Below are positions 1-10,445 of a stretch of DNA of 10,445 nt, one piece after another. The position numbers were made by a program, and so were the translations under genes. The first letter of the stretch is position 1, and each line of letters opens with the position of its first letter. Source of the stretch: Prevotella sp. UBA3208 (GTDB lineage: Bacteria; Bacteroidota; Bacteroidia; Bacteroidales; Bacteroidaceae); assembly GCA_002363695.1 (NCBI GenBank), contig DEWO01000128.1:1-10445 (forward strand), given 5' to 3'. The notes under the pieces are model-generated. The model made no database searches and was not told the origin of the DNA. It saw only the letters and a program-made list of their open reading frames with translations.

Positions 1-19
1 CCAACTGAACTACGGGCAC
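1..19 (-). tRNA. tRNA gene, 5' fragment only (isotype unknown)
   Basis: Read on the minus strand, positions 19 to 1 give GTGCCCG, then TA, GTTC, AGTTGG. This fits a tRNA 5' end exactly: a 7-nt acceptor strand, U8 and A9, a 4-nt D-stem strand, then A14 and the GG of the D loop. The window edge removes the anticodon, so the amino acid cannot be read. A good Bacteroidetes promoter lies just upstream (63-94). The call rests on 19 bases plus that promoter. Confidence 0.65.
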
Positions 20-62
20 CATAAAAAGAACGATTTGTGCAACCTTGTGGGTTTTGCGGGTG

Positions 63-94
63 CAAAGGTAGGGAAAATATTCGAGACGGCCAAA
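63..94 (-). promoter_or_regulatory. Bacteroidetes-type promoter for the tRNA
   Basis: On the minus strand TTTG (94 to 91) is followed after exactly 20 nt by TACCTTTG (70 to 63). This matches the Bacteroidetes vegetative consensus TTTG-N19-21-TAnnTTTG. Transcription should start a few bases below position 63, giving a leader of about 40 nt before the tRNA at 19. The -33 box lies inside a perfect 14-bp palindrome (89-102). Confidence 0.75.
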
Positions 95-102
95 TATTTG
101 GC
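89..102. repeat. Perfect 14-bp palindrome overlapping the tRNA -33 box
   Basis: GCCAAATATTTGGC equals its own reverse complement. It sits between the secG terminator and the tRNA promoter and covers the -33 element. It could be an operator for a dimeric regulator, or chance in AT-rich DNA. It has no spacer and no T-run placed to make it a terminator. Confidence 0.6.
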
Positions 103-113
103 GTACTTTTTTT

Positions 114-169
114 AAAAAACTAATAAAAACAACCTATCCCCACAGCAAAGAGCCATGGGGATAGGTTGT
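114..169 (-). terminator. Rho-independent terminator after secG
   Basis: CAACCTATCCCCA (130-142) pairs perfectly with TGGGGATAGGTTG (156-168) around a 13-nt loop, and the 129/169 A-T pair extends the stem to 14 bp. On the minus strand the stem is followed at once by T-rich sequence (TTTTT at 129-125, then TTTTTT near 119-114). It lies 22 nt past the secG stop codon. It should end the activator-lptE-TPR-secG transcript and insulate the tRNA promoter. Confidence 0.9.
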
Positions 170-190
170 AATAGGGGTCGGAATGACTTC

Positions 191-601
191 TTAGTTTGCG
201 GGCTGGGCAGGTGCCTCAGCGGCGGGTGCTTCAGTAGCAGGAGCTTCTGCTGCAGGAGCTGCAGCGTCCTTAGCTGGAGCAGCGGCATCCTTCTGCTGGC
301 TGGCTCCGAAACCAGGCAGATTGTTGGGGTTGGTGACGGGGTTCTCAATGTTCTCCATCACTGAACGGTCTGTGGTGGCTGTGGGGGCTACCCAGGCACA
401 GATGATGCTGATGATGACCATTGCGGCGGCGAGGCCCCAGGTGGCTTTCTCGATGAAGTCGGTGGTCTTGCGGACTCCGGCAACTTGGTTATAACCTGCG
501 AAGCTTGATGACAGACCGCCACCCTTCGACTCTTGAATCAGCACAATACCAATCATCAGTATGGCTGCAATCACGATAAGAATTACAAATAATGTGTACA
601 T
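191..601 (-). CDS. secG: Preprotein translocase subunit SecG with Ala/Pro-rich tail
   Basis: SecG is the small non-essential subunit of the SecYEG inner-membrane channel and assists SecA-driven export. The 136-aa product shows the family plan: a first hydrophobic helix (residues about 2-22), the conserved loop IQESKGGGL followed by SSSFAGYNQVAG (23-42), and a second helix (about 53-72). Beyond it is a 60-residue low-complexity tail rich in Ala, Pro and Glu, with EAPA-type repeats from about residue 106. That tail makes it longer than E. coli SecG (about 110 aa); extended tails are familiar in Bacteroidetes. It starts 1 nt after the stop of the upstream TPR gene, so it is co-transcribed and probably translationally coupled. 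No Shine-Dalgarno is visible, only A/T-rich sequence. A strong terminator follows. Confidence 0.95.
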   Translation of the reverse strand: MYTLFVILIVIAAILMIGIVLIQESKGGGLSSSFAGYNQVAGVRKTTDFIEKATWGLAAAMVIISIICAWVAPTATTDRSVMENIENPVTNPNNLPGFGASQQKDAAAPAKDAAAPAAEAPATEAPAAEAPAQPAN

Positions 602-602
602 G

Positions 603-1367
603 TTAATTTTGTTTTTTATTGTTGTTTATTATTAATTTCTCAAGGAAACGCATTTGGTCGGTAAAATAGGCGTTCTTGTGTGGAAACTGTTCGTTGAGCC
701 GTCCTATGATGTCGAGGGCTTTCTGATAGCGGCCCTGTTTGATGTAGATGCGTGCGAGGGTTTCGGTGAAGTATTCTTCGTCGTTGACGTCCTCGTCGTC
801 GTTGCCGTCTTTCTGCTGCGTGGTGCTGGCTGGTGTGAACTCGGGTAGTTCTGCCAATTGGATGCGCCCTTGTTCCTGCTCGAGGAAGGTGTCTATGAGG
901 TCCTGCCCTTTGAGCTGTGGGGTGTCGTTGTCGGTATTGCCGGCTTCTGTCTCCAACAGGTAGGCAACATAGTCGACTGCTGCGTCGGCAGGTGTGGGCT
1001 TCCTTTTGGTGTGGGGCTGCTCGTCAGTGTCGGGCATGGTGTCAAGGAAACTGTCAATGAGTGTGACGGTGCGACTCTCGGAATTTTGAGTTCTGGGCTT
1101 TGTGCTCTCTTGATTGGCAGCAGCCTGGGCAATCTGGTAGTGGGCGGCTTCTATCATCTGGAAGATGACGCGTCGGTCGGTGATGTAGAGTGCTGCTCGT
1201 CGCAGTTCTTCGTCGAAGGCGGGGTCGTGAAGCAGATAGAGGTTCTGCAGCATGAGCAGCCTTGCTGTCTGGTAGTATGGGTGGAGTGCCAGCAGGGAAC
1301 GGAGCTCATAGAGCGTGTTGCGGTCCATGAGTTCGGGATGCTTGATGAGTCCTGCTATCTCCACCAT
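603..1367 (-). CDS. TPR-like protein of unknown function in the lptE-secG unit
   Basis: I recognise this 254-aa product only as the TPR-like hypothetical protein that sits between lptE and secG in Bacteroidales. The N-terminal third (1-85) looks alpha-helical, with a HPYYQTARLLMLQNLYLL segment (29-46) resembling a helical repeat. The middle (85-195) is polar, acidic and low in complexity. It contains the short motif LIDxFL twice (103-108 and 157-162). The C-terminal part (about 199-247, including ARIYIKQGRYQKALDI) reads as a tetratricopeptide-type helix pair. There is no signal peptide or membrane helix, so it is probably a cytoplasmic scaffold or adaptor. The gene starts 35 nt after the lptE stop and ends 1 nt before secG. 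The context suggests a role in envelope biogenesis, but that is inference. The Ser/Thr-rich stretch around 87-101 resembles an in-frame insertion. Confidence 0.8.
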   Translation of the reverse strand: MVEIAGLIKHPELMDRNTLYELRSLLALHPYYQTARLLMLQNLYLLHDPAFDEELRRAALYITDRRVIFQMIEAAHYQIAQAAANQESTKPRTQNSESRTVTLIDSFLDTMPDTDEQPHTKRKPTPADAAVDYVAYLLETEAGNTDNDTPQLKGQDLIDTFLEQEQGRIQLAELPEFTPASTTQQKDGNDDEDVNDEEYFTETLARIYIKQGRYQKALDIIGRLNEQFPHKNAYFTDQMRFLEKLIINNNKKQN

Positions 1368-1402
1368 ACTTTTATGTTCTGTTGTCTGTTAATACTATGT
1401 TG

Positions 1403-1921
1403 TTACCAGTTGGCCACTGCAGCATTGAATATCTGGTCGCAGAGGTCTTTGACCATGAGCGTGACGAGTTCTTCCTGCACGGAACTGAGCGAGACGGTGG
1501 TCTCGTAGGTCTGGCTGGCTGTGAACTGCCGTTCGAAGTCTTCACTGTGGTTGGTATTGTTTGTAAAGCGCACATTGACGGTCATGGAGAGCTCGGTTTG
1601 TGCCGAATAGCCCTCGGACGACACTGACTTGTTGCGCTGGGTGTACTGTGTGATTTCGCCCTCGAGTTTCAGGTCGCCGTTACGTTTGACTTGCTGCAGC
1701 TTGGTATGGCTGGCAAACTGGTCCTTGAGCTGGTTGTTGAACATGGGTCCCATGGGTCCCCATACGTATGCCGTGCGAAGCGGGAACTCTGCAATCTGTA
1801 TGCTCTTGACCTTGGAGTAGTCGATACTTGCACCGTTGAACTTGTAGCTGACGGAACATGCTGACAGCATCATGACGAAGGTCAGGCAGAGGGTTAGGCG
1901 TATTTTATTTGTCCAGTCCAT
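1403..1921 (-). CDS. lptE: LptE-like LPS-assembly lipoprotein
   Basis: The predicted role is the outer-membrane lipoprotein that plugs and supports the LptD barrel, inserting lipopolysaccharide into the outer leaflet. The 172-aa product starts with a lipoprotein signal peptide: a basic start, a hydrophobic core and lipobox L19-S20-A21-C22, with Cys22 as the lipidated residue. The mature part begins SVSYKFNGASIDYSKVKSI, typical of the Bacteroidetes LptE family, which is short and rich in predicted beta strands. I chose the ATG at 1919-1921 because it yields a complete signal peptide. The reading frame is open further upstream, but that stretch is antisense-free shadow of the activator's 3' end. 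The gene overlaps the activator by 17 nt, implying translational coupling. Sequence similarity in this family is low, so the assignment rests on the lipobox, size and neighbourhood. Confidence 0.85.
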   Translation of the reverse strand: MDWTNKIRLTLCLTFVMMLSACSVSYKFNGASIDYSKVKSIQIAEFPLRTAYVWGPMGPMFNNQLKDQFASHTKLQQVKRNGDLKLEGEITQYTQRNKSVSSEGYSAQTELSMTVNVRFTNNTNHSEDFERQFTASQTYETTVSLSSVQEELVTLMVKDLCDQIFNAAVANW

Positions 1922-3146
1922 ATTGTTTAAGTCTGCGATATAGTGTACGGTCGCTGATGCCCAGCTCCATAGCGGCTTTCTTGCGGTTGCCTCCGTTGCG
2001 TTGGAGTGCTTTCTCGAGGGCCTGGCGGCTCCAGTCGTTGACATTGAGGTTCTCGAGCTCTGGTGAGGGCTCAATGTATTCTTCAGCCTCGGCATCCTCG
2101 GTGAGAGGTGACAACTGAGGGCTGATAGTCGAGAGGGTTGTCGGCAGTGGTGAGATGGCAGTCGACAACTGTTGCGACGGCTGGGCTGCAATGCCTCCTT
2201 GTACGTCCTCAATCTGCTTTTTCAGGGTACTCATCTCGCGTCGCATATCATTGACATTGGAGCGCAGTTCGAAGAGTATCTTATATAGAATCTCGCGTTC
2301 GTTCTCGAATGTGTGGTCACCGTCAGTGCGGATGGTGGCCAACTGGGTGCTCTCCTGGTCTTGCGGAATGAAGCGTGCCAGCACTTCGGCTGTAATCTGT
2401 CGCTCAGGGCTGAGGATGCTGATCTGTTCAGTGATGTTCTTCAGCTGTCGCACGTTGCCTGGCCACTTGTAGCGCATGAGCAGTTGTTTGGCTTCGTCGG
2501 TGAGCACTACTTTGTCCATGCGGTACTTCTCTGCCATCTGCATGGCAAAGAGACGGAACAGCAGCACAATGTCCTCGCCACGTTCACGGAGGGGAGGCAT
2601 CTGGATGGGGATGGAGTTCAGACGATAGTAGAGGTCTTCACGGAAGCGTCCCTCGCTGATGGCCTGCCGTATGTTGACGTTGGTAGCGGCGACAATGCGT
2701 ACATCGGTCTTGCGTACCTCAGTGGCTCCTACGGGTATGTATTCGCCTGTCTCAAGTACGCGCAGCAATCGTGCCTGTGTGGCCAGCGGCAGTTCGCCTA
2801 CCTCGTCAAGAAACAGTGTTCCCTTGTTGGCAACGCCGAAGTAGCCGGGTGAGTCGTTGATGGCACCTGTGAAGGAGCCCTTGACGTGTCCGAAAAGCTC
2901 AGAGTCGATAGTTCCTTCGGGTATGGAACCGCAGTTGATGGCGAAGTACTTCTCGCGGCGGCGTGGTGAGTTGTCGTGAATGACGCGTGGAATAATTTCC
3001 TTGCCTACGCCGCTTTCGCCCACGATGAGTACAGACAAGTCGGTGGGCGCTACCTGCAAGGCAACGTCCAGCACATGATTCAAAGCCTCGCAGTTGCCTA
3101 CGATGCTATATCGCTGCTTGATGGTCTGTAACTCCGAACTCTTCAT
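1905..3146 (-). CDS. Sigma-54-interacting AAA+ transcriptional activator, no receiver domain
   Basis: The 413-aa product is a bacterial enhancer-binding protein, which uses ATP hydrolysis to open sigma-54 (RpoN) promoters. The AAA+ domain starts almost at once (about residues 12-245). It has Walker A GESGVGK (43-49), the sigma-54 contact loop as GSFTGA (90-95; canonical GAFTGA), Walker B LFLDE (111-115), and FREDLYYRLN with PLRER (168-177, 185-189) for sensor and arginine-finger functions. Residues about 280-322 look like a coiled coil, followed by a Ser/Thr/Pro-rich linker. The C terminus (about 374-413) is a Fis-type helix-turn-helix (NRKKAAMELGISDRTLYRRLK). No response-regulator, GAF or PAS domain precedes the AAA+ module, so the activating signal is unknown. 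It heads the unit with lptE, the TPR gene and secG, and has its own -7 box upstream. Its targets cannot be read here. Confidence 0.93.
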   Translation of the reverse strand: MKSSELQTIKQRYSIVGNCEALNHVLDVALQVAPTDLSVLIVGESGVGKEIIPRVIHDNSPRRREKYFAINCGSIPEGTIDSELFGHVKGSFTGAINDSPGYFGVANKGTLFLDEVGELPLATQARLLRVLETGEYIPVGATEVRKTDVRIVAATNVNIRQAISEGRFREDLYYRLNSIPIQMPPLRERGEDIVLLFRLFAMQMAEKYRMDKVVLTDEAKQLLMRYKWPGNVRQLKNITEQISILSPERQITAEVLARFIPQDQESTQLATIRTDGDHTFENEREILYKILFELRSNVNDMRREMSTLKKQIEDVQGGIAAQPSQQLSTAISPLPTTLSTISPQLSPLTEDAEAEEYIEPSPELENLNVNDWSRQALEKALQRNGGNRKKAAMELGISDRTLYRRLKQYGLDK

Positions 3147-3171
3147 TTCTGCCGACTACACATTTGGGGCA

Positions 3172-3179
3172 CAAAGGTA
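3172..3179 (-). promoter_or_regulatory. Promoter -7 box for the activator-lptE-TPR-secG unit
   Basis: TACCTTTG on the minus strand (3179 to 3172) lies in the 72-bp gap between the pdxA stop and the activator start, leaving a leader of about 20 nt. No clear TTTG is present 19-21 nt upstream, so the -33 element is poor or the promoter depends on another factor. Confidence 0.55.
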
Positions 3180-3218
3180 CAAAGAAAATCTGACATTATG
3201 GCATACTTTGACAGAAAT

Positions 3219-4337
3219 TTAACTTTCAGCCTCTGTTTTCCTGGTTGGCTTGAATACCGAAAAACGTGCCTTGTCACCGTCTTCACGCTTCTCGTGGAAG
3301 AGTTTGGGCAGCGGATTTTCCAGTGGCTCGTCATAGTTCTGACGGTTGCGGAACACGTCGATAGCGGTATAGATGGCTTGCCGCATAGAGTTCTCGTCAG
3401 CCTTGCCCAGTCCGGCAATGTCGAAGGCTGTTCCGTGGTCTGGTGAGGTGCGAATGATGGGTAGTCCTGCCGTGTAGTTGACACCGTCACTGATGGCAAT
3501 GGTCTTGAAAGGAGCCAGGCCCTGGTCGTGATACATGGCTAACACACCATCGAAATGTACATAGGTGGCAGCACCGAAGAATCCGTCAGCAGGGTAGGGA
3601 CCAAAGGCTTGTATGCCATTGGCTGCCAGTTCGTCGATGGCGGGTTTGATGATGGTCTGCTCTTCGGAACCCAGCACGCCTTCGTCACCTGCGTGAGGAT
3701 TCAGAGCAAGTATGGCGATACGTGGATTGGATACGCGGAAGTCGCGTTTCAGGCTCTGGTGGAAGATGGTGGCTTTCTCAATGATGGCCTCTTTAGTGAT
3801 GGCCTGTGCCACGTCTTTGATAGGCAGGTGGGTGGTGACCAGTGCCACACGCAGATTCTCGTTCATAAGTATCATAAGCGCTTTCTGGCCTTCGCCCACG
3901 CTGGTCTCGATGTACTCGGTATGTCCTGGGAACTTGAAATCAGGACTCTGGATGGTAGCCTTGTTGATGGGGGCTGTCACCAGTACGTCGTAGAGTCCGC
4001 TGCGGAAGTCGGTCATTGCTCTGTCCAGTGCCATGAGGGCTGCCTGTCCAGCCTCTTGCGAGGGCTGTCCGAGTTCAACCTTCACCTCGTCGTCAAAACA
4101 TGTCAGCAAGTTCAGCCGTCCGTCGCGAGCCTCCTCGGCAGTATTGATGATGCTGAAGTTGGTCTCCAACTCCAGTGCCTTGCGGTGGTATGCGGCAATC
4201 TTGGGCGAGCCGTAGACGATAGGGGTGCAGAGTTCGAACATGGCAGGGTCGGCAAAAGCCTTGAGTATGACTTCATAGCCTACACCGTTGGTATCTCCTT
4301 GCGTGATAGCCACGCGTATTTTTCTTTCTTGCTCCAT
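3219..4337 (-). CDS. pdxA: 4-hydroxythreonine-4-phosphate dehydrogenase PdxA
   Basis: PdxA oxidises 4-phosphohydroxy-L-threonine with NAD(P)+; the product condenses with deoxyxylulose 5-phosphate (via PdxJ) to pyridoxine 5'-phosphate, the vitamin B6 precursor. It is a cytoplasmic, metal-dependent homodimer. The 372-aa product has the N-terminal motif TQGDTNGVGYE (12-22) and FPGHTEYI (136-143). The three expected metal-binding histidines are at H170 (VTTHLP), H215 (NPHAGDEG) and H270 (YHDQGLAPFK), at family spacing. RTSPDHGTAFDIAG (296-309) is the conserved C-terminal signature. I chose the ATG at 4335-4337 because it starts directly before the conserved core; the open frame upstream is a shadow of rlmN. 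The gene begins 29 nt after rlmN, suggesting co-transcription. The GDTNGVG form in place of GDPAGIG is usual in Bacteroidetes. Confidence 0.95.
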   Translation of the reverse strand: MEQERKIRVAITQGDTNGVGYEVILKAFADPAMFELCTPIVYGSPKIAAYHRKALELETNFSIINTAEEARDGRLNLLTCFDDEVKVELGQPSQEAGQAALMALDRAMTDFRSGLYDVLVTAPINKATIQSPDFKFPGHTEYIETSVGEGQKALMILMNENLRVALVTTHLPIKDVAQAITKEAIIEKATIFHQSLKRDFRVSNPRIAILALNPHAGDEGVLGSEEQTIIKPAIDELAANGIQAFGPYPADGFFGAATYVHFDGVLAMYHDQGLAPFKTIAISDGVNYTAGLPIIRTSPDHGTAFDIAGLGKADENSMRQAIYTAIDVFRNRQNYDEPLENPLPKLFHEKREDGDKARFSVFKPTRKTEAES

Positions 4338-4366
4338 AGTTGTATGTTTCGTTCTTATCGTAATGA

Positions 4367-5437
4367 TTATAACGGGATTCCGTTGTTTTGCTTGGCTGTT
4401 GATAGTAGTCCGCAGGCGGCAAAGATATCCTGTCCGCGGCTGGCACGGATGGTGGTGAACACACCATGAGCCGTCAGGTAGTCGCGCAGTGACTCCATGC
4501 GCTTCTCGTCGGATGCAGGCAGGTCTACTCCAGGTATTTCGTGGAAGCGGATGAGGTTGATGCGGCATTCCAATCCCTGTAGCAGGCGGGCAATCTCGCG
4601 TCCGTAAGTCGGTGTATCGTTCAATCCGCCGAAGCAGATGTACTCGAACGAGCATCTGCGCTGGTGCGTGAAGTCGTATTGATGCAGCAGTTCGAGGGTT
4701 TCTTCCAGTGGCATAGCTTTCTCGGCAGGCATCAACTTCAGACGCTGCTCGTGCAGTGGTGAGTGCATGGAGATGGCCACATGGCACTCGCTTTCGTCGA
4801 GGAATCGCTTTAGCTTTCCCCTGACGCCCACACTACTGACAGTGATGCGCTTGGGACTCCAGGCGAATCCCCAGTCGGCCGTCAGAACCTCAGTGGCTTG
4901 CAGTACGGCATCAAGGTTGTCCATAGGTTCTCCCTGCCCCATGAACACGATGTTGGTCAGCCTGTCACGTTCTGGCAGTGCCAGTATCTGGTTGAGAATG
5001 TCGGCAGTAGTCAGATTGCCCTGCCATCCTTGCTTGCCCGTCTGGCAGAACAGGCAGTTCATCTTGCATCCTACCTGACACGATACGCACAACGTGGCTC
5101 GGTCGTGGTCTGGTATGAAAACCGTTTCGACGAAGCGGGTGGTGCCGGAAGATTCTGAATCAGAACTCTCTGAGCAACGCACGGGGAAAAGGTACTTGAT
5201 AGTGCCGTCCTTGGAGCGTTGGCAATCGATAGGTGCCATCAGCCCTACTTCGTACTGTTCGTCTATCCGCTGGCGGTTCTGCTTCGAGATATTGGTCATC
5301 TCGTCTACCGAAGAGACCTGTTTCTCATAGATCCACTGAGCCAGTTGCCTGGCTGTGAAGGCAGGCATACCCAATACTCCGACTACGTTTTTCAGTTCAG
5401 CCGGAGTCATTCCTATGAGTCGTTTTTTCGAATTCAC
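4367..5437 (-). CDS. rlmN: Dual-specificity rRNA/tRNA adenine-C2 methyltransferase RlmN
   Basis: RlmN is a radical-SAM enzyme that methylates C2 of A2503 in 23S rRNA and A37 of some tRNAs, through a methylated cysteine. With the GTG start at 5437 the product has 356 aa. The 4Fe-4S ligands are C124, C128 and C131 (CKMNCLFC). The methyl-carrying and resolving cysteines fit C342 (RGQDIFAACGLL) and C117 (CVSCQVGC). GQGEPMDNLD (167-176) is the SAM-binding GEP region. Residues about 88-99 form a Ser-rich insertion where most homologues run directly from FPV to FVE. Start choice: the open frame reaches a TTG at 5452, but that codon adjoins the -7 box. GTG 5437 keeps the conserved KKRLIGMT start but implies an almost leaderless mRNA. 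ATG 5410 would give a normal leader and a product 9 aa shorter. The start is therefore uncertain. Confidence 0.93.
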   Translation of the reverse strand: MNSKKRLIGMTPAELKNVVGVLGMPAFTARQLAQWIYEKQVSSVDEMTNISKQNRQRIDEQYEVGLMAPIDCQRSKDGTIKYLFPVRCSESSDSESSGTTRFVETVFIPDHDRATLCVSCQVGCKMNCLFCQTGKQGWQGNLTTADILNQILALPERDRLTNIVFMGQGEPMDNLDAVLQATEVLTADWGFAWSPKRITVSSVGVRGKLKRFLDESECHVAISMHSPLHEQRLKLMPAEKAMPLEETLELLHQYDFTHQRRCSFEYICFGGLNDTPTYGREIARLLQGLECRINLIRFHEIPGVDLPASDEKRMESLRDYLTAHGVFTTIRASRGQDIFAACGLLSTAKQNNGIPL

Positions 5438-5441
5438 GCTG

Positions 5442-5474
5442 CAAAGGTACAACTTTTAATTGAAAATTGATAAA
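5442..5474 (-). promoter_or_regulatory. Promoter for rlmN-pdxA
   Basis: On the minus strand TACCTTTG (5449 to 5442) is a perfect -7 box. A three-of-four -33 match (TTTA, 5474 to 5471) lies 21 nt upstream, inside the first TGATAAA heptad. The expected start point is only about 1-4 nt from the GTG chosen for rlmN. Confidence 0.6.
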
Positions 5475-5488
5475 TGATAAATGATAAT
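5468..5488. repeat. Three tandem 7-bp repeats in the divergent promoter region
   Basis: TGATAAA, TGATAAA, TGATAAT run head to tail with no spacer. They fill the space between the -33 elements of the two divergent promoters, so they could bind a shared regulator. They may equally be simple AT-rich sequence. Confidence 0.6.
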
Positions 5489-5520
5489 TTTGGCAGATTC
5501 AATAAAAAGTATTACCTTTG
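5489..5520 (+). promoter_or_regulatory. Bacteroidetes-type promoter for the fused GT-HIT-SpoIID gene
   Basis: TTTG (5489-5492) is followed after exactly 20 nt by TACCTTTG (5513-5520), a full match to the Bacteroidetes consensus. The start codon at 5552 leaves a leader of about 25 nt. No Shine-Dalgarno stands out; the nearest purine run is AAAG just before the ATG. Confidence 0.8.
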
Positions 5521-5551
5521 TGGCACTTATGCCTAAAATCATGATACAAAG

Positions 5552-8500
5552 ATGAAACAGAAGATAGATTGTTTCCTGGCTTGTCATCAGGCTGGGGAAG
5601 TGTCCCATACTGTCCGTCAGTTGGAAGGTAGCACCGCAGTGAGCCGTGTGTTCTTGCTGGAAGGACAGCCTCTTCAGAGCAGTGCTATGGTGATGAGTGT
5701 GGCCGAGAAAGCCACTGCCCCCTATGTGCTGGTAGTGATGAAACCTGTCCCTTTGACTATTGGCGAAGGAGCCTTGGAGCGTCTGTTGCTGGCAGCCAGC
5801 GACACTGGTGCTGCAATGGTCTATGCCGACCGCTATGCGATGGAGAACGGACAGCGTAAGGCGCATCCTGTGATAGACTATCAGGAGGGCTCGTTGCGCG
5901 ACGATTTCGATTTTGGTTCATTGTTGCTCATACGCACCTCGCTGTTGCACAAATATGCCACCAGTGATCATGAACGTGACTACCAGTATGCCGGTTTCTA
6001 CGACCTGCGCCTGTTTTTGAGTCGTGAGGGCCTTCTGTTCCACCTGAACGAGTACCTCTATACGGAAGAAGAGCTGGATCTTCGTGCCTCGGGCGAGAAG
6101 CAGTTTGACTATGTGAACCCAGCCAACAGAGCCGTCCAGATAGAGATGGAGCAGGTCTGCACCCAGCATCTGCGCGAGGTGGGTGCGTTGGTCGATACCA
6201 CTCAGTATCAGGAGATAGACTTCCTGGAACAGGAATTTGAGTTTGAGGCCTCGGTGGTGATACCTGTCTTTAATCGTGCCAAGACTATTCGTGACGCCGT
6301 GGAGAGTGCATTGTCCCAGGAGACTGCCTTCCCTTATAATGTCATCGTAGTGGACAATCACTCAACGGACGGCACCTCAGATATTCTGGAAGAACTGTCG
6401 TCGAAGTATGGCAACAAGCTGCATGTCATCGTGCCCGACCGTAACGACTTAGGCATCGGAGGCTGTTGGAACGAGGCCGTGTTCAGTCGTGCTTGTGGGC
6501 GTTTTGCTGTTCAGCTGGACTCTGACGACCTCTACTCGTCGCCTCAGACGCTGCAGACCATTGTTGATGCCTTCTACCAGCAGCAGGCTGCTATGGTAAT
6601 AGGTTCCTATCGCATGTGCGACTTCGAACTGAATACCCTGCCTCCTGGACTCATTGCCCATCAAGAGTGGACAGACGAGAACGGCCCCAACAATGCCCTG
6701 CGCATCAACGGCTTGGGTGCGCCTCGTGCCTTCTTTACCCCTGTGTTGCGCAGCATCGGATTCCCCAATACCTCCTATGGTGAGGACTACGCCTTAGGGC
6801 TGATGTTCTCGCGTCGCTTCCGCATTGGGCGCATCTTCACCGAACTCTATTTGTGCCGTCGTTGGGGAGGTAATTCTGACGCAGCCCTCTCAGTCGAGAA
6901 AATCAATGTCAACAACTTGTATAAAGACCGCCTGCGTACGATGGAACTGAAAGCCCGTCAGCGTATGGCTCAGGGGGGGGAAGACGCATTGAGCCAGTCG
7001 CCCCTGATGCGCTTCTTCCTGCGCCAGCTACAGACGTGGGACGACGTGCGCCAGCGTTATCGTGATCTGGGGCAGGTGGAAACCCGCGAGCTGGTGACTG
7101 ACGGTTTCACACTGAATGTGCAGTGGAATCCGGCACGCATTCGCTCTACAGGTGCCAAGATTGACGCTCGTTCAATTGCCGAGCGCCCCTGCTTCCTGTG
7201 TTGTCAGAATCGTCCACAGGAGCAGATGCGTCGCGTCATTGACAGCGATTATGAACTGTTGGTCAATCCGTTCCCCATACTGCCTGTCCATCTGACGCTG
7301 CCCACCCTGAAGCACCAGCCCCAGAGCATAATCCCCATGTATGGCGAACTGCTTCGGTTGGCTCAGCGCAACAGTGACCTTACCTTATTATATAATGGTC
7401 CTCATTGTGGAGCCTCCGCTCCTGACCACGCCCATCTGCAGGCTGTCAGCAGTGGCATCCTGCCCTTGCAGACTGCTTGGCAGCGTCTGAGCCGCAATTT
7501 GTTGGAGGTCATCAAAAACGATGACGACGAGGGCATTTGGCACGTAGGCGACTATCCTGCAGCGGCCTTCCTGGTGAAGAGCCATACGATAGAGGTAGGT
7601 GTGCGTCTGTTCCGGCGCCTCTACGAATGTCTGCCATCCTCTATTCATGCCGGCGAGGAACCCATGATGAATATCATTGCCTGGCATCAGGGCGACGACC
7701 TGTTGAGTGTGGTACTGCCACGCAGAAAGCACCGTCCTGACTGCTATGAGCGGTGCATGATCAGCCCTGGTGCAGTCGATATGGGTGGGCTCTTGATAAC
7801 CCCTCGTGAGGAAGACTTCCGCAAACTCACACCAGAGCAGGCGCTGGGCATCCTCCATGAGGTGTCGCTGACTCCCGAACAAGTGGCACAGGTTGCAGAA
7901 GAGTTGAAACTACGGCAGAACAAGGAACGTAGTCCCAAGAGCCAGGAACAGCCTACTGTCAAGGTGGGCATCGTTAGCGGTCAGGAGATACACTTCGCCC
8001 TCAATGGCCCCTACATGGCCAAAGGCGAAAGCATACAGGGTGAGCAGACGGTGGCCTTCTCGGAAGGCGGCATTCTTTGGAACGGCAACCAGTATCGTGA
8101 ACTGACGTTTACCCCCCAGCGTGCTGATGCCTCGTTCTCATTGTCCGACGTCACCATTGGCGTCAACTTCCATTGGGAGCGCAAGGAAACCCAGACCTTT
8201 CTAGGTACGCTGCGCCTGGTGGTGGAGGCAGATAAGATTACTGCCATCAACGAACTGCCCGTCGAACAGTATCTGGCTTCGGTCATCTCCAGTGAGATGA
8301 AGGCGACGGCAGGGCTCGAACTGCTTAAGGCCCACGCAGTCATCAGTCGCTCGTGGCTGTTGGCACAGATGAAGCGTCGCGAGGACAGTCAGGAGCAGAA
8401 GAACGGATTCTTCTCGTTCCAGAAGAAAGACGACGAAATGATACGCTGGTACGATCGCGAAGACCATACCATCTTCGATGTTTGTGCCGATGACCACTGC

Positions 8501-9160
8501 CAGCGCTATCAGGGCATCACCAAGCAGACCAGCCGCAATGTGGAACAGGCTCTGAAGGCTACCCGCGGACAGATACTCTGCTATGGCGACGATATCTGCG
8601 ATGCCCGTTTCTCTAAGTGCTGTGGAGGTCGTACCGAGGAGTTTCAGTACTGTTGGGAAGACACTCCCAAGCCTTATCTGGTCAGTGTCGAGGATCCTTT
8701 CTGTAACACCAACGACAAAGCCGTGCTCTCACAGGTGCTCAACGACTATGACTTGGAGACCAACGATTTCTACCGCTGGACCGTCGAATACACTACCGAC
8801 GAACTTTCCAACCTCATCAATGCCAAGCTGAAGGATGACTTCGGTACCGTTACCGACCTTATTCCTTTGGAGCGAGGCAAGAGCGGACGCATCTGGAAAC
8901 TGAAGATTGTGGGTACCAAGAAGACCTTCACCATCGGCAAGGAGCTGGAGATTCGCCGTGCACTCAGCGAGAGCCACCTCTATAGTTCAGCCTTCGACGT
9001 GGAGAAAACACCTACCGGATTCCGTCTTCACGGCATGGGCTGGGGCCATGGGGTAGGCTTGTGCCAGATTGGTGCTGCCGTCATGGGGCAGCAGGGATAC
9101 AGCTACGAACAGATATTGCTGCACTACTATCGTGGTGCCGAAATAAAACGAATCTATTAA
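5552..9160 (+). CDS. Fused protein: tandem GT2-like domains, HIT (DUF4922) domain and SpoIID/LytB domain
   Basis: The 1202-aa product holds parts I remember as separate, adjacent genes in other Bacteroidales. Residues about 1-190 resemble a GT2 fold ([26 protein letters not shown]) with no DxD: the position reads VMKPVPL. Residues about 232-440 are a GT2 glycosyltransferase with VVIPVFNR (235-242), [10 protein letters not shown] (266-275), QLDSDD (321-326) and GEDYALG (410-416). Residues about 486-780 match DUF4922, a GalT/Ap4A-phosphorylase-like HIT domain: CFLC (547-550), [16 protein letters not shown] (616-631) with HxHxQ at H626, H628 and Q630. Residues about 802-1200 are SpoIID/Lyt[16 protein letters not shown] (902-916, likely acid E915), AHAVISRSW (927-935), a possible His/Cys metal site (H972, C978, C983), CCGGRTEE (1023-1030) and [14 protein letters not shown] (1163-1176). 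There is no signal peptide or membrane segment. Domain calls are firm; substrates and overall role are inference, with the adjacent AmpG-like permease pointing to cell-wall fragments. Confidence 0.9.
6973..6980 (+). repeat. G8 homopolymer at the GT-HIT domain junction
   Basis: Eight consecutive G encode the end of Q474, then G475, G476 and the start of E477. The tract lies in the linker between the GT2 domain and the DUF4922 domain, whose conserved part begins at about M486 (ATG at 7007). Adding one G meets TGA at 7063-7065; losing one G meets TGA at 6990-6992. Confidence 0.95.
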
Positions 9161-9166
9161 TTAAGT

Positions 9167-10445
9167 ATGATGAATAGTAAAAGAAATCCGTGGTCGTGGA
9201 TACCGACCCTCTACATCGCCGAAGGACTGCCCAACGTGGTGGTGATGACGGTGGCTGTAGTTATGTATATGCAGTTAGGGCTGACCGATACAGACATAGC
9301 CCTCTATACTGGCTGGTTAGGACTGCCGTGGGTCATCAAACCCCTGTGGAGTCCGTTCGTTGACCTCTATCGCACCAAGCGTTGGTGGGTGCTGACCATG
9401 CAGTTGCTGTTGGGCTCGTCGCTGGCAGGTGTCGCCTTTACGCTCAACACTCCTTTCTGGTTCCAGGGCACTATGGCCTTCTTCTTCCTGATGGCCTTCA
9501 GCAGTGCCACTCACGACATTGCCGCTGACGGCTACTATATGCTCGAGTTGGACGACCACCAGCAGGTGTGGTTTGTGGGCATCCGCAACACCTTCTATCG
9601 CCTGGCCGTCATCTTCGGCAACGGTGTGCTGATTCCCGTGGCAGGTGTGCTGCAGGTGATGTTCCGCTATCAGATGGCGTACACTTGGTGTCTCGTGTTC
9701 TACGGACTGGCAGCCCTCTTCATTGCCATCTGGCTCTACCATAGTTATATCATGCCGCGTGCAGCGAAGGACACGCCCCACGACACCAATGCCCGCGAGG
9801 TCATGAACGGTGTGGTGACAGCCTTCAAGACTTTCTTCCAGAAGCTGCCTCCGCGTGAGATGATGTATGCCATGCTGTTCCTCTTGTTCTACCGTTTCCC
9901 TGAGGCTCTGCTCACCAAGATGAGCGTTACCTTCCTCATGCGCCCCCATTCGGCAGGCGGTTTAGGACTGTCGCCTCAGGAGTTTGGATTGGCCAGTGGC
10001 ACCGTGGGGGTCATCGGACTGACTTTGGGCGGCATCCTGGGTGGTATGCTTGCGGGCCGCGACGGATTCAAGCGCTGGCTGTGGCCTATGGTGTGTGCCA
10101 TCACGTTGCCCGACATCGTCTACGTCTATATGAGCTATGCCCTGCCAGACAATCTGTTTGTCATCAGCTCCTGTCTGTTCGTTGAACAATTGGGCTATGG
10201 CATCGGCTTCACGGCCCTGACCCTCTATATGCTCTACTTCAGCAAGGGCAACTTCCAGACCTCCCACTATGCCTTCTGTACTGCCATCTCTTATCTGGGA
10301 CTCATGCTGCCCGGCATGGTTTCCGGTTGGATGAAGGATGCTTTGGGCTATCGTTCGTTCTTCATCATCGTCATGGCTCTGTGTACCATTACTTTTGCCG
10401 TGACAGCCTTTATCAAGGTCGATCCGGAGTTCGGCAAGAAGACTG
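9167..10445 (+). CDS. AmpG/MurT-type MFS permease, 3' end cut by window
   Basis: The first 426 codons of a major-facilitator permease of the AmpG family are present; such proteins carry muropeptides or MurNAc-type sugars across the inner membrane. The start shows YIAEGLPN (residues 16-23), followed by the GLPWVIKPLWSPFVD region between helices 2 and 3 and the positive TKRWW loop, then SSATHDIAADGYY, a strongly conserved AmpG-family segment. Many hydrophobic helices follow, consistent with a nearly complete 12-helix protein lacking perhaps only a short C-terminal tail. Two in-frame ATG codons (9167 and 9170) are possible starts, 6 nt past the stop of the fused gene, so the two are clearly co-transcribed. 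A Tannerella member of this group (MurT) imports MurNAc; by analogy this one may bring cell-wall sugars to the fused enzyme. The exact substrate is not readable from sequence. Confidence 0.9.
   Translation, partial: MMNSKRNPWSWIPTLYIAEGLPNVVVMTVAVVMYMQLGLTDTDIALYTGWLGLPWVIKPLWSPFVDLYRTKRWWVLTMQLLLGSSLAGVAFTLNTPFWFQGTMAFFFLMAFSSATHDIAADGYYMLELDDHQQVWFVGIRNTFYRLAVIFGNGVLIPVAGVLQVMFRYQMAYTWCLVFYGLAALFIAIWLYHSYIMPRAAKDTPHDTNAREVMNGVVTAFKTFFQKLPPREMMYAMLFLLFYRFPEALLTKMSVTFLMRPHSAGGLGLSPQEFGLASGTVGVIGLTLGGILGGMLAGRDGFKRWLWPMVCAITLPDIVYVYMSYALPDNLFVISSCLFVEQLGYGIGFTALTLYMLYFSKGNFQTSHYAFCTAISYLGLMLPGMVSGWMKDALGYRSFFIIVMALCTITFAVTAFIKVDPEFGKKT

Follow-up and report, generated by a model that had tools for sequence, protein, structure and literature searches.

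In Escherichia coli, peptidoglycan recycling follows the pathway AmpG - NagZ - AmpD - AnmK - MurQ. A different gene set is found in Tannerella forsythia, where the operon Tanf_08345-08385, shown by reverse transcription PCR to be a single transcript, is annotated as xanthan lyase, gtf, gtf, lytB, ampG, ybbC, murT, murK and murQ (PMC5388701). According to the passages cited here, the AmpG protein of this species, functional at 27% identity to that of E. coli, has as its major substrates the peptide-free disaccharides of N-acetylglucosamine (GlcNAc) and N-acetylmuramic acid (MurNAc), namely GlcNAc-MurNAc and the 1,6-anhydro form GlcNAc-anhMurNAc; the latter is reported as a sole source of MurNAc, and no AnmK is predicted (PMC7670621). 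The T. forsythia MurK was found not to convert anhMurNAc (PMC5790795).

Here we describe a stretch of 10,445 nt from Prevotella sp. UBA3208 (contig DEWO01000128.1, positions 1 to 10,445; 'the window'), in which one gene encodes a fusion of a family 2 glycosyltransferase (GT2), a DUF4922 domain of the HIT type and a SpoIID/LytB domain, and is followed by the gene for an AmpG-like permease. We consider it fairly probable that these parts, whether fused or separate ('the module'), form a cytosolic processor of the cargo of AmpG that acts in place of AnmK.

The fusion protein and its permease partner

A preliminary description of the window reported four domains in one 1202 aa chain with a permease gene starting 6 nt after its stop codon, an arrangement confirmed by the open reading frame, by Pfam and NCBIfam matches and by the same fusion in its best 80 relatives. 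These were taken from the at least 536 relatives found in a genome scan and have 60-95% identity over the best segment; since they share the architecture, the fusion is not an accident of assembly. By their records, 75 of the 80 come from Prevotella, Prevotellaceae or Xylanibacter, four from a 'Bacteroidales bacterium' and one from an 'uncultured bacterium', the closest being that of the uncultured Prevotellaceae RUG431 (L001; 95% identity). As RUG records are rumen genomes, the window is most likely that of a Prevotellaceae member living in the rumen. A protein search scored 7,997 candidates, all with E <= 0.001; 120 proteins of 1125-1245 aa among the matches listed all have the GT2, DUF4922 and SpoIID Pfam domains.

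The GT2 assignment is based on the match to PF00535 at residues 234-369 (89.8 bits against a cut-off of 23.3), the DxD motif and the catalytic acid; D323, D325, D326, E411, D412, R436 and R437 are all kept in 52 of 52 distant sequences. As the tandem GT2 enzyme K4CP aligns over residues 2-475, and the acid pair of the GT2 position is not kept in the first half, residues 1-225 look like a degenerate GT-A fold. PF16269 (DUF4922) matches residues 488-632 with 203.8 bits (cut-off 23.6), and both the fold and the HxHxQ motif are those of the Apa2 type: the diadenosine tetraphosphate (Ap4A) phosphorylase Apa2 is the best fold match, at 15-18% identity, with ADP-glucose phosphorylase and GalT-type enzymes as distant fold relatives. 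The open-licence literature found on DUF4922 concerns plant GDP-L-galactose phosphorylase only.

The C-terminal part matches PF08486 at residues 894-1011 (88.7 bits, cut-off 23) and the SpoIID_LytB domain family TIGR02669 at residues 897-1200 (181.7 bits, cut-off 83.3), but falls below the cut-off of the sporulation SpoIID equivalog TIGR02870 (143.8 bits against 234.75). Hydropathy analysis, in windows of 19 residues on the Kyte-Doolittle scale, detected no stretch resembling a signal peptide or membrane span in the fusion, the peak being 1.36 where the usual threshold for a membrane helix is 1.6. On these two grounds the sequence is classed as a SpoIID-domain protein rather than SpoIID proper. 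E915 aligns with the catalytic E101 of Clostridioides difficile SpoIID, and the spacing of H972, C978, H982 and C983 is that of its H134, C140, H145 and C146 save for one residue less, in a poor local alignment; all five residues are kept in 44 of 44 distant sequences, and the four His/Cys residues are a candidate zinc site. The fold and catalytic glutamate are shared with the SpoIID lytic transglycosylases of Bacillus anthracis (4rwr) and C. difficile (5i1t), and the His/Cys set resembles the zinc site of these. Unlike these, the fusion has no evident export signal, is joined to nucleotide-using enzymes and is paired with an importer.

The first 50 residues of the standalone SpoIID genes found in other modules likewise did not exceed a hydropathy of 1.43 in any of 38 cases; most of these genes start within about ten residues of the domain, with a few having 27-55 residues before the first matched position. 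Because no signal-like stretch is present and two of the fused domains need nucleotides, the SpoIID domain of the fusion is probably cytosolic. The same two observations make it extremely improbable that the fusion is exported as an ordinary periplasmic autolysin, even though SpoIID proteins are described in the passages cited as acting outside the cytoplasm (PMC6635528, PMC6221140), with a signal peptide and septal placement (PMC6635528). The structure was modelled as two overlapping pieces, residues 1-790 and 485-1202, and as their relative arrangement is unreliable (pTM 0.55 for the second), no channel between active sites is claimed.

The permease matches the AmpG family TIGR00901 over residues 17-410 with 152.6 bits, below the cut-off of 350, and is named AmpG-like only. 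A gene of this type lies directly downstream of the fusion, on the same strand, in 79 of the 80 fusion loci as well as the window, at distances between -103 and +190 nt apart from one locus at +577; the fusion gene is the first of a probable two-gene unit. In the sole exception (L031, 13730-14998) the AmpG-like gene lies on the opposite strand to the fusion, through either an inversion or an assembly error.

Features of the fusion gene, its upstream region and the permease gene in the window
Feature	Coordinates	Strand	Basis and remarks
1202 aa fusion protein	5552..9160	+	Open reading frame list; ATG start
Degenerate GT-A-like domain, residues 1-225	5552..6226	+	No DxD; K64, variable there
GT2 domain, residues 226-482	6227..6997	+	DSDD 323-326 and E411-D412 intact
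DUF4922/HIT domain, residues 485-790, Apa2 (Ap4A phosphorylase) fold	7004..7921	+	HAHLQ 626-630
SpoIID/LytB domain, residues 800-1202	7949..9157	+	E915; H972, C978, H982, C983; no export signal by hydropathy
Promoter-like TTTG-N20-TAccTTTG	5489..5520	+	31 nt 5' of the fusion ATG; read from the sequence
AmpG-like major facilitator superfamily (MFS) permease, 426 codons to the window end	9167..10445	+	TIGR00901; probably complete bar the stop codon

A module tied to AmpG and to MurNAc salvage genes

The preliminary description also called for a survey of the co-occurrence of these parts and the permease. We drew 295 genomes evenly from the order of Prevotella koreensis ('the order sample'), of which 73 have DUF4922; 60 DUF4922 regions of up to 20 kb were fetched, 59 of them with a real domain, and the parts were located with hidden Markov models built from the Prevotella fusions. 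Among these 59 loci GT2 was found in 52, SpoIID in 45, AmpG in 45 (weakly in L167) and all three in 38. The order GT2, HIT, SpoIID, AmpG is seen repeatedly, in separate genes, in GT2-HIT fusions (L114, L116, L118 and L120), in HIT-SpoIID fusions (e.g. L112, L115 and L119) and in the full fusion (L113). Elsewhere in the Bacteroidales the parts are often partial fusions or single genes that keep this order, which indicates that they probably act together; that they constitute one functional unit tied to AmpG is close to certain. A scan across the phylum detected DUF4922 in 44 of 296 genomes, mostly in open frames of 288-387 aa.

A direct search using the NamZ, MurT, MurK and MurQ genes of one locus (L138) as queries found these in 20, 10, 30 and 22, respectively, of the 60 order-sample stretches. 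At least one of the four is near 35 of the 59 DUF4922 loci, comprising 35 of the 45 with AmpG and none of the 14 without; an earlier clustering into families had given 34 mur-linked loci (association with AmpG, Fisher 3e-7). The separate parts are linked to AmpG and, in loci with AmpG, to MurNAc genes; a lack of such linkage in other genomes would have counted against the preliminary proposal. The recurrent neighbours that were annotated, not being all of them, are mostly salvage or uptake genes.

The gene order of L138 (Golvesin_C, GT2, DUF4922, SpoIID, AmpG, NamZ, MurT, MurK, MurQ) matches the T. forsythia operon part for part, with DUF4922 where the latter has its second 'gtf' and NamZ where it has ybbC, a layout by which Tanf_08355 would be DUF4922 and Tanf_08370 NamZ. 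The unfused module with mur genes thus has the same order as the published operon. The Prevotella-type loci differ in replacing the separate genes with one fused protein, and in lacking these neighbours: with the L138 queries, no NamZ, MurK or MurQ was found in the 80 fusion loci or the window, and a single MurT-like gene in L064. The expectation that murQ, a MurNAc kinase or NamZ would lie nearby therefore holds for the order-sample loci but not for the fusion itself. The idea of a cytoplasmic machine that processes imported wall glycans is partly supported.

Anti-association with AnmK

AnmK, defined as a match to PF03702, is present in 199 of the order-sample genomes: 11 of the 71 genomes with a DUF4922 match ('module genomes') have it, against 188 of the other 224 (Fisher 4e-26, uncorrected for kinship). 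The correction for kinship used random samples of 60 genomes from each group, lepA being found in 59 and 56 respectively, which gave a tree of 115 genomes. On this tree, a Pagel-type test of the module against AnmK returned a likelihood ratio (LR) of 21.7 (4 degrees of freedom, p 2e-4), and when AnmK was simulated at its own rates none of 2000 runs reached the observed correlation of -0.71. Reducing the large module clade to one tip left AnmK in 8 of 22 genomes with the module and 49 of 53 without it (LR 21.2, p 3e-4). Amongst the genomes with the full fusion, AnmK was found in none of 50 (those of 50 of the best 80 fusion loci, L001 included), 47 of which are titled Prevotella, Prevotellaceae or Xylanibacter.

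AnmK might instead have been lost because free MurNAc is imported through NamZ, MurT and MurK, the module then having some other task in handling what AmpG imports, for instance the shortening of long glycan chains. The mur genes near many module loci would fit this, as would the enrichment of MurQ with the module (40 of 71 genomes against 27 of 224; on the tree, 33 of 59 against 3 of 56, LR 34.7). However, the tie of MurQ to AnmK is weaker than that of the module: on the tree AnmK occurs in 12 of 36 genomes with MurQ and 47 of 79 without (Fisher 0.015; LR 9.0, p 0.06). Furthermore, both MurQ and AnmK are absent from 31 of the 71 module genomes, and at E <= 1e-40 MurQ was found in 19 of the 50 fusion genomes and not in the other 31. 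We regard import of free MurNAc as an unlikely explanation, albeit one to be taken seriously. Across the order sample, MurQ is present in 67 of the 295 genomes at E <= 1e-48 and is lacking from 171 of the 199 with AnmK, hence the product of AnmK must be used without MurQ in these.

Two further markers were dropped. No NagZ over the cut-off was found in the 295 genomes, and GH3 proteins, many of around 1000 aa, occur both with and without the module; NagZ is consequently silent on the question of replacement. MurU was considered as a marker of the next step, but matches were obtained in 38 of 38 module genomes and 14 of 14 controls alike, none of them over the curated cut-off. The 38 module genomes lacking a MurU over the cut-off would also suit a HIT domain acting as a GalT-like MurNAc-1-phosphate uridylyltransferase in place of MurU, as would its intact HxHxQ motif and distant fold relationship to GalT-type enzymes; we rate this as very unlikely. 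Relative to the E. coli pathway, the likeness lies in AmpG-type import of GlcNAc-anhMurNAc into the cytoplasm, and the difference in AnmK, which 60 of the 71 module genomes and all 50 fusion genomes searched lack, with no NagZ over the cut-off in the order sample.

Proposed processing of AmpG cargo and neighbouring genes

We infer which substrate is used, which way each reaction runs and that AnmK is replaced, as follows. The cargo would be peptidoglycan fragments that are free of peptides and have MurNAc or 1,6-anhydroMurNAc at the end, on which the module would perform, by other chemistry, the work done in E. coli by AnmK together with cytosolic NagZ. The SpoIID domain is predicted to cut the MurNAc-GlcNAc bonds of imported denuded oligosaccharides, opening or avoiding the anhydro ring with water as the acceptor, whilst GT2 and HIT would handle the leftover GlcNAc via a nucleotide sugar; the MurNAc would pass to AmgK and MurU for UDP-MurNAc or, where present, to MurK and MurQ for catabolism. 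Peptide-free cargo fits the need of C. difficile SpoIID for denuded strands, this enzyme acting on peptidoglycan only after the amidase SpoIIP has removed the peptides (PMC6221140). The Waddlia SpoIID, in the passages cited, is a muramidase on denuded strands giving mainly non-anhydro products, which was not the case for B. subtilis SpoIID in the same test (PMC6635528); such chemistry is what would be needed to yield MurNAc rather than anhMurNAc. As T. forsythia has no predicted AnmK and a MurK that does not convert anhMurNAc, its anhydro sugar requires an opener, for which the module is the conserved AmpG-adjacent candidate.

That one chain joins a GT2 to a HIT domain of the phosphorylase type suggests the use and regeneration of a nucleotide carrier. 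In the direction of breakdown this would give GlcNAc-1-phosphate, and in that of synthesis a decorated acceptor; we prefer the former, given that salvage genes predominate among the annotated neighbours. In one tentative and rather doubtful version, SpoIID would be a ring-opening hydrolase or muramidase, GT2 would run backwards to move GlcNAc onto a nucleoside diphosphate (NDP) and HIT would phosphorolyse the NDP-GlcNAc, returning the NDP, such that GlcNAc-anhMurNAc + H2O + Pi would become GlcNAc-1-phosphate + MurNAc without ATP. Were this correct, the nucleotide-relayed scheme would replace both NagZ and AnmK. The coupling of sucrose synthase, which when run backwards turns a disaccharide into an NDP-sugar, with a nucleotide-sugar phosphorylase offers an analogy only, as the families are different.

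Conversely, in an anabolic module HIT would combine NDP and a sugar-1-phosphate to form a nucleotide sugar, GT2 would transfer the sugar to an acceptor such as an imported muropeptide, and SpoIID would edit the product. GT2 enzymes normally run forward, and the nearest folds of the glycosyltransferase part include K4CP, TarS/TarP and heparosan synthase, which build polymers; set against the salvage and uptake character of the annotated neighbours, this appears quite unlikely to us.

Several points nevertheless weigh against a processor of AmpG cargo replacing AnmK. The module genomes of the AnmK comparison were defined by a DUF4922 match rather than by all four parts, and 11 of the 71 keep AnmK. 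The anti-association comes partly from one clade (41 tips, of which 38 have the module and two AnmK), and the tree represents one gene, with fits made by a local optimiser from random starts and with genome completeness gauged only through lepA, recovered from 115 of 120. AnmK loss with and without the module was fitted at 7.0 and 0.30 on the full tree and at 1.8 and 1.2 on the pruned tree, and as these differ, the fits do not show acquisition of the module first and loss of AnmK thereafter. The stretch read lacks AmpG in 14 of the 59 DUF4922 loci and SpoIID in 14, some being cases of contig ends (L113 covers 4 kb), and cells with NamZ, MurT and MurK may be able to do without AnmK for other reasons. 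In T. forsythia, the passages cited report only restricted growth on free anhMurNAc, with uptake of peptide-bearing (anhydro-)muropeptides left possible by the authors (PMC7670621).

If the module does process AmpG cargo in place of AnmK, it would be a case of a lytic SpoIID domain placed in the cytoplasm, and would give the outline of a route by which the Bacteroidales recycle peptidoglycan; these bacteria are common in the gut, and the host senses the wall fragments that they release. The module would also be a candidate answer to the question, raised in print, of how T. forsythia uses GlcNAc-anhMurNAc without a predicted AnmK (PMC7670621, in the passages cited). In the open-licence literature searched, we found no account of the fusion or of a function or measured activity for it, of a cytosolic SpoIID or of the anti-association with AnmK; the operon context is partly in print.

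The neighbouring families were annotated through one member each with Pfam or NCBIfam. The MurQ neighbour scores 315.8 bits against TIGR00274 (cut-off 302) and the MurT-like one 25.6 bits against HGSNAT_cat (cut-off 22), whereas the MurK-like one is below the cut-off of the BadF family (26.7 against 31.5); the other families named are NamZ, a Golvesin_C protein and a GlcD-like FAD/Fe-S oxidase. Besides L138 (9797-12814), 17 loci have the Golvesin_C protein, of about 1000 aa, near the module; in 12 loci its gene immediately precedes GT2, and it may correspond to the 'xanthan lyase' of T. forsythia. The GlcD-like FAD oxidase, fused to Fe-S/CCG domains, is near the module in L131 (14342-17206) and six other loci; D-lactate from MurQ could be its substrate.

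An AmgK-like kinase is encoded beside a MurU-like gene in L304 (51-1487), both below curated cut-offs, in a module genome (G159) without AnmK or MurQ. A second such pair is found in L115 (18513-20000), separated from the module by around 6 kb. With a RapZ C-terminal domain in the L304 kinase, to which the L115 gene is homologous, a MurNAc kinase that senses glucosamine 6-phosphate is possible.

The sequence upstream of the fusion gene resembles the Bacteroides promoter consensus, which is TTTG, 19-21 nt and TAnnTTTG. Beyond it, the upstream genes of the window lie on the opposite strand and encode an RlmN-like radical SAM protein, PdxA, a sigma-54 activator, LptE and a protein with weak TPR similarity. 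Amongst the order-sample loci (L111-L170), 22 of 45 AmpG-like genes (e.g. L132-L136, L158 and L160) have an insert of about 110-200 residues between the transporter halves, absent from the window permease, in which Pfam named no separate domain when applied to L136; this loop would presumably lie in the periplasm, given MFS topology. Finally, in L137, L143 and L152 the SpoIID gene is upstream of and apart from the module, on the opposite strand in the first two, and the AmpG gene is followed by a Mur-ligase family gene and an M24 peptidase, as named from the L137 members.

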